This document shows, in pieces, positions 25,934 through 27,926 of a stretch of DNA of 64,000 nt. Made by a program: the position numbers and the translations under genes. The first letter of the stretch is position 1. Each line of letters begins with the position of its first letter. Below the pieces are notes generated by a model. That model had not been told where the DNA came from. It saw only the letters and a program-made list of their open reading frames with translations, and searched no databases. The DNA is from Protaetiibacter larvae (GTDB taxonomy: Bacteria; Actinomycetota; Actinomycetes; Actinomycetales; Microbacteriaceae), in contig NZ_CP043504.1 of NCBI RefSeq assembly GCF_008365275.1, positions 1,860,001 to 1,924,000 of the forward strand. Reading direction: 5' to 3'.

Positions 25934-26188
25934 CTACTCGGCGAGCGGCGTGAGGACGAGCTTGTCCTCGTTGATCTCGTGGAGCGCCACCGACAGCGGC
26001 TTGTCGTCGATCGTGGAGTCGACGAGCGGCCCCACGTTGTCGAAGAGCGAGCCCTCGTGGAGGTCCGCGTAGTAGTCGTTGATCTGGCGCGCGCGCTTCG
26101 AGGCGAAGATCACCAGCTGGTACTTCGAGTCGACCTTCGACAGCAGTTCGTCGATGGGCGGGTCGATGATGCCCTTGTTGTCGGCCAT
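25934..26188 (-). CDS. rpoZ: DNA-directed RNA polymerase omega subunit
   Basis: Small subunit that helps assemble the beta-prime subunit into RNA polymerase. The 84-residue protein has the [16 protein letters not shown] start and the [16 protein letters not shown] helix typical of actinobacterial omega. The start ATG at 26188 has a strong GAGGAGAG site. It is 11 bp after gmk. Confidence 0.96.
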
Positions 26189-26199
26189 TCCGGCTCTCC

Positions 26200-27105
26200 T
26201 CACGATCTCGTGCGCGCGGATGGGGCTCCGGGCACTGCCAGCAATTCTACGACCTCCTGCGCCGCCCGGCCGACGTCGCGGTTGACGACCTTCACGTCGA
26301 ACTCGTCCTGGGCGGCGAGTTCGATGCGCGCGGTGTCCAGTCGCCGGCTCTGCTCGGCGGCGTCCTCGGTGCCGCGACCCGTGAGCCGGCGCACGAGCTC
26401 CTCCCAGCTGGGCGGCAGCAGGAAGACGAGGAGGGCCTCCGGCATGGCCGCACGCACGGCGCGTGCGCCCTGGAGATCGATCTCGAGCAGCACGCTGCGC
26501 CCCTGGGCGAGCGCCGCGTCGATCGGCGGCCGGGGCGTGCCGTAGCGGGAGGCGTTGTGCACGGTCGCGTACTCGAGGAAGTCCCCGCGCTCGATCATCG
26601 CGTCGAAGTCCTCGTCCGTCACGAAGTAGTAGTGCTCGCCGTCGACCTCGCCCGGTCGCGGTGCACGCGTGGTCGCCGACACGCTCAGCAGCACATCCGG
26701 ATAGTGGTCGCGGATGTAGGTCGAGACGGTGCCCTTGCCGACCGCCGTCGGCCCGGCGAGCACCACGAGGCGGCTGACCGGCCGGCTCGGGGCGCCCTCG
26801 CGAGCCTCGAGCCACTCCCGCAGGCGTTCGCGCTGGCGCGAGCCGAGGCCGCCGACGCGCTTGGCGTCCGCGATCCCGAGCTCCGCCATGATGCGCGCGA
26901 CGCGGGTCGCCCCGATCCCGGGGATGCTCGTCAGCAGCTCACGCACGCGCAGCGAGCCTTCGGGGGTCGTCGGGTCGGCCCAGGCCGTCTCGGCGACGTC
27001 GAGCGCGCGCCGGAGCCGGTGGTGCACGGCCTGCTTCACAGCCGCGCGGGCGCGACGCGCAGCGATCGCCGCCCGTCCCGCTGCGGCGCGATCGACGTCC
27101 GGCAT
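26200..27105 (-). CDS. gmk: Fusion of mIHF-like DNA-binding domain with guanylate kinase
   Basis: A single 301-residue reading frame from the ATG at 27105. Residues about 10-103 match the actinobacterial integration host factor (mIHF): [17 protein letters not shown], then [20 protein letters not shown] (a GxG helix-turn motif that binds DNA) and [13 protein letters not shown]. Residues 112-301 are guanylate kinase, with P-loop GPTAVGKGT at 118-126, [19 protein letters not shown] for GMP binding and a lid segment. The kinase makes GDP from GMP; mIHF is a nucleoid protein. In most actinobacteria these are two adjacent genes between pyrF and rpoZ, in this same order. Here no stop or frameshift separates them. 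The start is 2 bp after the pyrF stop. Whether the product stays fused is not known from sequence. Confidence 0.92.
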
Positions 27106-27107
27106 CC

Positions 27108-27926
27108 TCACCTCGGCCACGCGGCGACCTCCCGACGCGCGGCGTCGATCGCCGAGGCGATCCCGGCGGGACCGGCACCGAGCACACTGCGCGACACGGT
27201 GGGGAGCACGGAGCCGAGCGCGTCGCCGAACAGCGCCGGTGCCTCCGGCAGCAGCGCACCTTGAGCACCGAAACCGGGGGCGAGAACGGGCACGGGCACG
27301 AGCTGCTCGCGCCGGATGCCGAGCTCCGCGAGATCCACGGTGGCTCCGACGACCACGCCCACCTCCCCCGCGTGCTCCCCCGCGTGCCGCAGCAGCTGCG
27401 CGGCGACCGTCTCGCCCTGCGCGTCCCGTGCCGTCTGCACCTCGGCGCTCTCGGGATTCGAGGTGGCGGCGAGCACGAACACGCCCTTGGCTGCGGCGCG
27501 GGCACGTGCGATGACACCGTCGAGCGAACCGAAGCCCTGGTAGGCGACGGCGGTCATGGCGTCGGCCTCGAGCGGAGATCCGGGAGTCAGCCAGGCCTCG
27601 CCGTAGGCGTCGACGGTCGAGCCGACGTCCCCGCGCTTGACGTCGGCGATCACGAGCAGCTCCGCCGCACGGGCGGCGCCGAGCACCTCCTCGAGGGCGG
27701 CGTATCCGGCCGCCCCATGCCGCTCGAAGAAGGCGATCTGCGGTTTCACGATGCCGACCCGGGCCGCGGCGGCCTCGACGACCCGCAGCCCGAACTCGCG
27801 CGCCCCCGCGGCGTCGTCCCCCAGGCCCCACGTCGCGAGGAGCGGCGCATGCGGGTCGATGCCGACGCACAGCGGACCGTGCTCGGCGACGACGTCGGCG
27901 AGGCGAGCGCGAAATCCGCCGCTCAT
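27108..27926 (-). CDS. pyrF: Orotidine 5'-phosphate decarboxylase (type 2)
   Basis: Last step of UMP synthesis. The 272-residue protein belongs to the longer type 2 family. The catalytic stretch is [13 protein letters not shown]. The substrate loops are VGIDPHAP near the N-terminus and APGFGAQG near the C-terminus. It overlaps carB by 4 bp (ATGA). Confidence 0.96.

Follow-up and report, generated by a model that had tools for sequence, protein, structure and literature searches.

A guanylate kinase joined to an mIHF-type nucleoid domain in Protaetiibacter larvae and other Microbacteriaceae

One reading frame for mIHF and guanylate kinase

Are the nucleoid protein mIHF and guanylate kinase (Gmk) parts of one protein in Protaetiibacter larvae, and if so, how widely is this state shared and what would it mean for the two activities? 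The locus lies in a stretch of 64,000 nucleotides (nt) of contig NZ_CP043504.1, here called the window, within which all coordinates are counted. The first-pass annotation of this DNA had described a single uninterrupted frame for both domains. This was confirmed on the minus strand, where the frame 26200-27105 is unbroken and gives 301 residues from the ATG at 27105, from which residue numbers are counted. The profile NF041260 (actino_IHF) matches residues 5-97 with 71.9 bits (cut-off 60), which bears out the proposed mIHF identity of the N-terminal part. The guanylate kinase profile TIGR03263 matches residues 112-289 with 210.5 bits (equivalog cut-off 160.45), and the kinase is complete, as had been claimed, with its P-loop at residues 118-125. 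Matches to the Pfam families H2TH_5 and Guanylate_kin were found at residues 50-96 and 111-289. Because it shares a single frame with Gmk and is not a free protein of about 105 amino acids (aa), the N-terminal part is classified here as an mIHF domain and not as an mIHF protein.

A second, free mihF was not detected in the genome by searches with PF22525 and NF041260, and the fused copy is thus the only one. It is the sole PF22525 match at E ≤ 0.001. The other NF041260 match (16.6 bits) lies in the ribosomal operon, in an open reading frame beginning MARLAGVDIP, which we take from this start to be ribosomal protein S13. The features of the locus are listed below.

26200..27120, minus strand: fused mIHF-gmk gene, running from a probable GTG start at 27120 (306 aa; 301 aa if translation begins at the ATG at 27105) to a stop codon at 26200-26202
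27128..27132, minus strand: GGAGG, a Shine-Dalgarno-like element spotted by eye, 7 nt upstream of the GTG start
26815..27093, minus strand: mIHF domain, residues 5-97 (NF041260)
26818..26958, minus strand: H2TH portion of the mIHF domain, containing GIG and KRVGGLG, residues 50-96 (Pfam H2TH_5, 53.3 bits, cut-off 27)
26773..26796, minus strand: interdomain linker, residues 104-111, variable among relatives and with a dip in predicted local confidence (pLDDT)
26239..26772, minus strand: guanylate kinase domain, residues 112-289 (TIGR03263)
26731..26754, minus strand: P-loop GPTAVGKG, residues 118-125, invariant in 34 aligned fused proteins
27108..27926, minus strand: pyrF, upstream neighbour (Pfam OMPdecase), its stop codon overlapping with the probable fusion start
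25934..26188, minus strand: rpoZ, downstream neighbour (Pfam RNA_pol_Rpb6)

The gene order pyrF - fusion - rpoZ is thus present. Translation more likely starts at the GTG at 27120 than at the ATG at 27105, because GGAGG stands 7 nt upstream of the GTG and the same arrangement is seen in congeners. A GGAGG-like element before a GTG at the same place is kept in four of the five congeners compared, and start codons several codons ahead of the ATG also occur in other relatives compared. A promoter and terminator scan yielded nothing useful.

Both halves retrieve their expected structures. In a sequence search against known structures, the N-terminal half retrieved sIHF (4itq) and mIHF (6tob), and the top match of the C-terminal half was the Gmk of Mycobacterium tuberculosis. 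The predicted model agrees with this: its N-terminal half has the H2TH fold and matches sIHF bound to DNA, and its C-terminal half has the Gmk fold, with 55% identity to the M. tuberculosis enzyme in the structural alignment. The block mean of pLDDT falls to 66 at residues 101-110. Together with an overall predicted template modelling score (pTM) of 0.61, this low-confidence linker gives no fixed domain interface in the predicted structure. Most likely, the model represents two independently folding halves joined by a short flexible linker.

Distribution in Microbacteriaceae

The family of the window genome (f1) has Protaetiibacter and Homoserinibacter as nearest named relatives and is hence referred to as Microbacteriaceae. 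The fusion is carried by 141 of its 149 genomes. A one-frame match running across the junction was obtained in 139 of the 149; 24 of these 139 rows were flagged as containing a stop, and all 24 turned out to be single-frame fusions when the loci were opened. One further genome (G163) was matched in the Gmk half only, yet its locus (L090) is fused, and in another (G157) the gene is cut by contig ends, one piece crossing the junction. Among the named loci, 46 of 80 are fused in a single frame. The open junction in 141 of 149 genomes rules out a sequencing error or misassembly as the source of the fusion, and also the hidden stop between the domains that the first-pass annotation had considered. 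The fusion itself stood, but as a family-wide state with at least two origins (see below) and not as a peculiarity of one genome.

Frameshifts in the fused gene were seen in Pseudolysinimonas kribbensis (G017; L044/L101) and Homoserinibacter gongjuensis (G004; L074), both outside the 149. Their assemblies, matched to these names through the contig and the position of the gene, are 86% and 89% complete, respectively, and the frameshifts are likely sequence errors. A typical fused gene of the Microbacteriaceae type, whose product aligns with the window protein at 80% identity, is also found on a contig titled Acidobacteria bacterium (JABBOD010000020.1; L009), and this record is therefore probably mislabelled.

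Both halves are under purifying selection, which is strong on the mIHF half. In the kinase, G118-G125, R147, Y188, E208, D210, R244, R255 and others are invariant among 34 aligned fused proteins; catalytic residues are among these positions. On NF041260, all eight fused relatives scanned score 64.5-72.3 bits, and three f1 members with small genomes (G023, G118 and G052) score 55-58, under the cut-off of 60.

Loss of the mIHF half

Gmk occurs alone in 8 of the 149 f1 genomes (G018, G109, G164; G021, G111, G166; G088, G145; loci L082-L089). A hidden Markov model of mIHF gave weak matches of 15-20 bits in seven of them, in frames of 126-165 aa, and none in G145. We read these matches as ribosomal protein S13, an identity checked in the window genome. 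mIHF is entirely missing in three genera (g81, g11 and g14). In a tree from which one row with a long branch (L120) was omitted, g81 falls within the fused genera (support 92), and g11 and g14 together are sister to the rest. In g81, one genome (G088; L118) carries a long low-complexity tail rich in Ala, Thr and Pro before Gmk, in the place of mIHF, and the other (G145; L119) carries a short tail. Given this nesting and the tail in G088, the mIHF half was likely lost after fusion in g81; the alternative, in which all f1 fused rows are held together, stays unrejected in the approximately unbiased (AU) test (p = 0.26).

The eight genomes do without mIHF although it is described as essential in M. 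tuberculosis in excerpts of PMC6155035; each of them keeps one HU. HU gave no signal of compensation: of 22 genomes, 21 have a single copy and the remaining one has two, irrespective of mIHF.

Separate genes in other actinobacteria

In 15 genomes drawn from the order's other families, separate mIHF and Gmk matches, or Gmk only, were obtained. Wider samples covered 149 genomes of the order (10 of f1), 158 of the class and 159 of the phylum; as families were sampled, rare cases may escape. Apart from f1 and a second family (f37, see below), no stop-free match over both domains was present among the matches listed for these samples, and none of 45 opened pairs was fused (all 44 listed matches starting at or before residue 20, plus L255). 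The claim of the first-pass annotation that the neighbours are elsewhere separate genes agrees with the loci opened in other families, and the order it gave, with the fusion standing between pyrF and rpoZ, holds.

Among 40 opened pairs (from L240-L279), mihF and gmk are in the same reading frame in 35, and in 30 exactly one stop codon stands between the open frames; the pairs were selected for spanning matches, and these numbers are not rates. Many lineages are thus one stop-loss from fusion, yet unfused. Despite the many one-stop mihF-gmk pairs, none of the loci L165-L169 and L240-L279 is fused.

A second family and independent origins

The second family, f37, has genomes of 1.0-2.2 Mb; as a guess only, we take it to be Nanopelagicaceae. 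The fusion is present in 90 of 101 f37 genomes and the genes are separate in 11. Twelve of the 90 fused rows were flagged as containing a stop; five of these were opened and are fused, and the other seven show the same pattern by match only. In two genomes (G528 and G556) the gene is cut by contig ends beyond the junction.

A tree of CarB, CoaBC and MetK places f37 far from f1, with the separate-gene genera basal in f37. A single clade of all fused proteins was rejected on the combined mIHF and Gmk data (AU p = 1.6e-11, for groups picked after the first trees), while Gmk alone leaves a single origin of the fusions unrejected (AU p = 0.26). Fused and separate f37 proteins cluster together in the combined tree (support 91, not starred). 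Because the combined data reject a single fused clade and separate-gene genera stand at the base of f37, we conclude from these trees that the fusion evolved at least twice.

Within f37, the trees require two to three state changes, and a single clade of the f37 fused proteins is unrejected (AU p = 0.41). Either more than one fusion, or one fusion followed by re-splitting, could account for this pattern. Two f37 fusions (L211 and L212, in G506 and G555) have a linker about 10 residues longer than the others and branch in the tree between genera whose genes are separate, a hint of one more fusion.

Possible function of the fused protein

mIHF is described as an abundant nucleoid protein in M. 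tuberculosis, where deletion of mihF required gmk and rpoZ in trans owing to polar effects (excerpts of PMC6155035). It binds and bends DNA with no sequence specificity (excerpts of PMC3724605), and sIHF binds as a monomer (excerpts of PMC10028186). We found no explanation for mihF sitting beside gmk and rpoZ. That these neighbours fused twice independently and have stayed joined family-wide, while other lineages a single stop codon from fusion remain unfused, amounts to a natural experiment that points to either a functional link or great tolerance.

We lean towards a reading of the sequences in which both halves go on working as they did when separate and the kinase simply travels to the DNA with its partner. 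The gene product would be a normal GMP kinase loosely tethered to an IHF (H2TH) domain of the actinobacterial type. DNA binding by the mIHF half, without sequence specificity, has most likely persisted, and this half would keep the work of a nucleoid protein as the cell's only mIHF; the kinase would consequently be brought to the nucleoid or its vicinity. A single stop-loss or small deletion between mihF and gmk probably made the join, which would be easy because the two genes adjoin with little between them, and the fusion may have been retained because the two halves tolerate each other. The data can be explained without active regulation between the halves.

Several observations weigh against this reading. 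Residues were compared among 35 f1 fused rows, 20 f37 fused, 11 f37 separate and 27 free outgroup mIHF proteins. The third Arg of the motif RRxR(G), presumably a DNA contact, is kept in 1 of the 35 f1 fused rows as against 26 of the 27 free outgroup proteins. Four Lys positions conserved in free mIHF are retained in 0-2 of the 35. The statement of the first-pass annotation that both domains keep their key residues is therefore right for the kinase and wrong for these positions of the mIHF half. Because of these losses, DNA binding of the fused mIHF half may be weaker or different. In addition, mIHF function is dispensable in some f1 lineages, as the eight genomes without it show. Finally, all 30 one-stop pairs remain separate, so that tolerance alone is insufficient to account for fusion in only two families; these pairs cut both ways, since the join is easily made but elsewhere was not made or not kept. 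The residue losses, seen in nearly all of the 35 rows, would also fit an mIHF half that is no longer a nucleoid protein and serves Gmk as an attachment with a structural or oligomerising role, as would the three genera without mIHF, in one of which G088 has its low-complexity tail instead. We give such an appendage little credence, however, because the mIHF half is under strong purifying selection, its net positive charge is unchanged, R17, R20, K24 and G65 are retained in 35 of 35 fused rows, and its fold matches sIHF bound to DNA.

The simple carriage of the kinase to the DNA must also be set against functional coupling, in which DNA binding would regulate or place the kinase, or the GMP/ppGpp state would feed back, as a convergent adaptive link of chromosome state with GDP/GTP supply. 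The sequences make this conceivable, if unlikely. It would suit the at least two origins with long retention in both families, the 30 one-stop pairs left unfused elsewhere, and a change at one and the same place in the motif in f1 and f37 fusions, the third Arg being absent in 34 of 35 f1 and 20 of 20 f37 fused proteins; GMK is moreover a target of (p)ppGpp, by which it is inhibited in several phyla (excerpts of PMC6783271). However, the linker varies in length and sequence, the predicted structure lacks a fixed interface, and some f1 lineages live with Gmk alone. The third Arg is also mostly gone in the separate f37 proteins (present in 4 of 11), so that its change is not strictly tied to fusion. 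Should coupling be true, chromosome state (or ppGpp) and GDP/GTP production would act on each other in one molecule. A very improbable outcome is that two ordinary proteins arise after all, by a post-translational cut, as the first-pass annotation had suggested, or by an internal start that yields an extra kinase. Within the 26 codons preceding the P-loop, an in-frame ATG occurs in 7 of 20 f37 fused genes (3 with a Shine-Dalgarno-like element), which would allow this, but in only 6 of 80 distinct f1 fused genes (1 with the element), compared with 20 of 47 Gmk genes that are separate or stand alone (4 with the element). The common GTG codons 3-4 codons ahead of the P-loop lie inside the first strand of the kinase, and no shared cleavage motif was seen by eye in the junctions compared. 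Given the rarity of an ATG with a Shine-Dalgarno-like element and the absence of a shared junction motif, an internal start or cleavage appears unlikely in f1, where splitting is also unsupported by the variable linker, and less clear in f37.

The fusion also fixes a 1:1 ratio of nucleoid protein to enzyme. How much mIHF a cell requires, and how tethering to DNA affects a nucleotide kinase, thereby become directly testable in harmless bacteria of soil and freshwater.

Comparison with known systems

Compared with actinobacterial IHF (NF041260; mIHF of Mycobacterium, PDB 6tob; sIHF of Streptomyces, PDB 4itq and 6bek), the domain described here is the N-terminal third of an enzyme of about 300 aa and not a free protein. 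RRxRG is replaced by KRxGG, and the four conserved Lys positions are changed. The kinase has the same complete catalytic domain as bacterial Gmk (TIGR03263; M. tuberculosis Rv1389, PDB 1s4q/1znw), with the P-loop kept, but it carries an extra N-terminal domain of DNA-binding type, and a start of its own behind a Shine-Dalgarno-like element is not conserved.

MAGUK-type proteins (DLG, PSD-95, CASK) appeared among the fold matches and likewise join a guanylate-kinase fold to other domains. MAGUK proteins have a scaffold role and have lost kinase activity. They are eukaryotic with other partner domains, whereas the present fusion pairs a kinase with intact motifs with a nucleoid domain from bacteria.

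Each domain by itself is well known. In the literature searched, a limited collection, no description of an mIHF-Gmk fusion was found, nor of its spread through a whole family or of its having arisen repeatedly. NF041260 has the type "equivalog_domain", and the fused members scanned, at 64-72 bits, stand just above its cut-off of 60, which suggests that the NCBIfam curators have met longer proteins with an mIHF domain.
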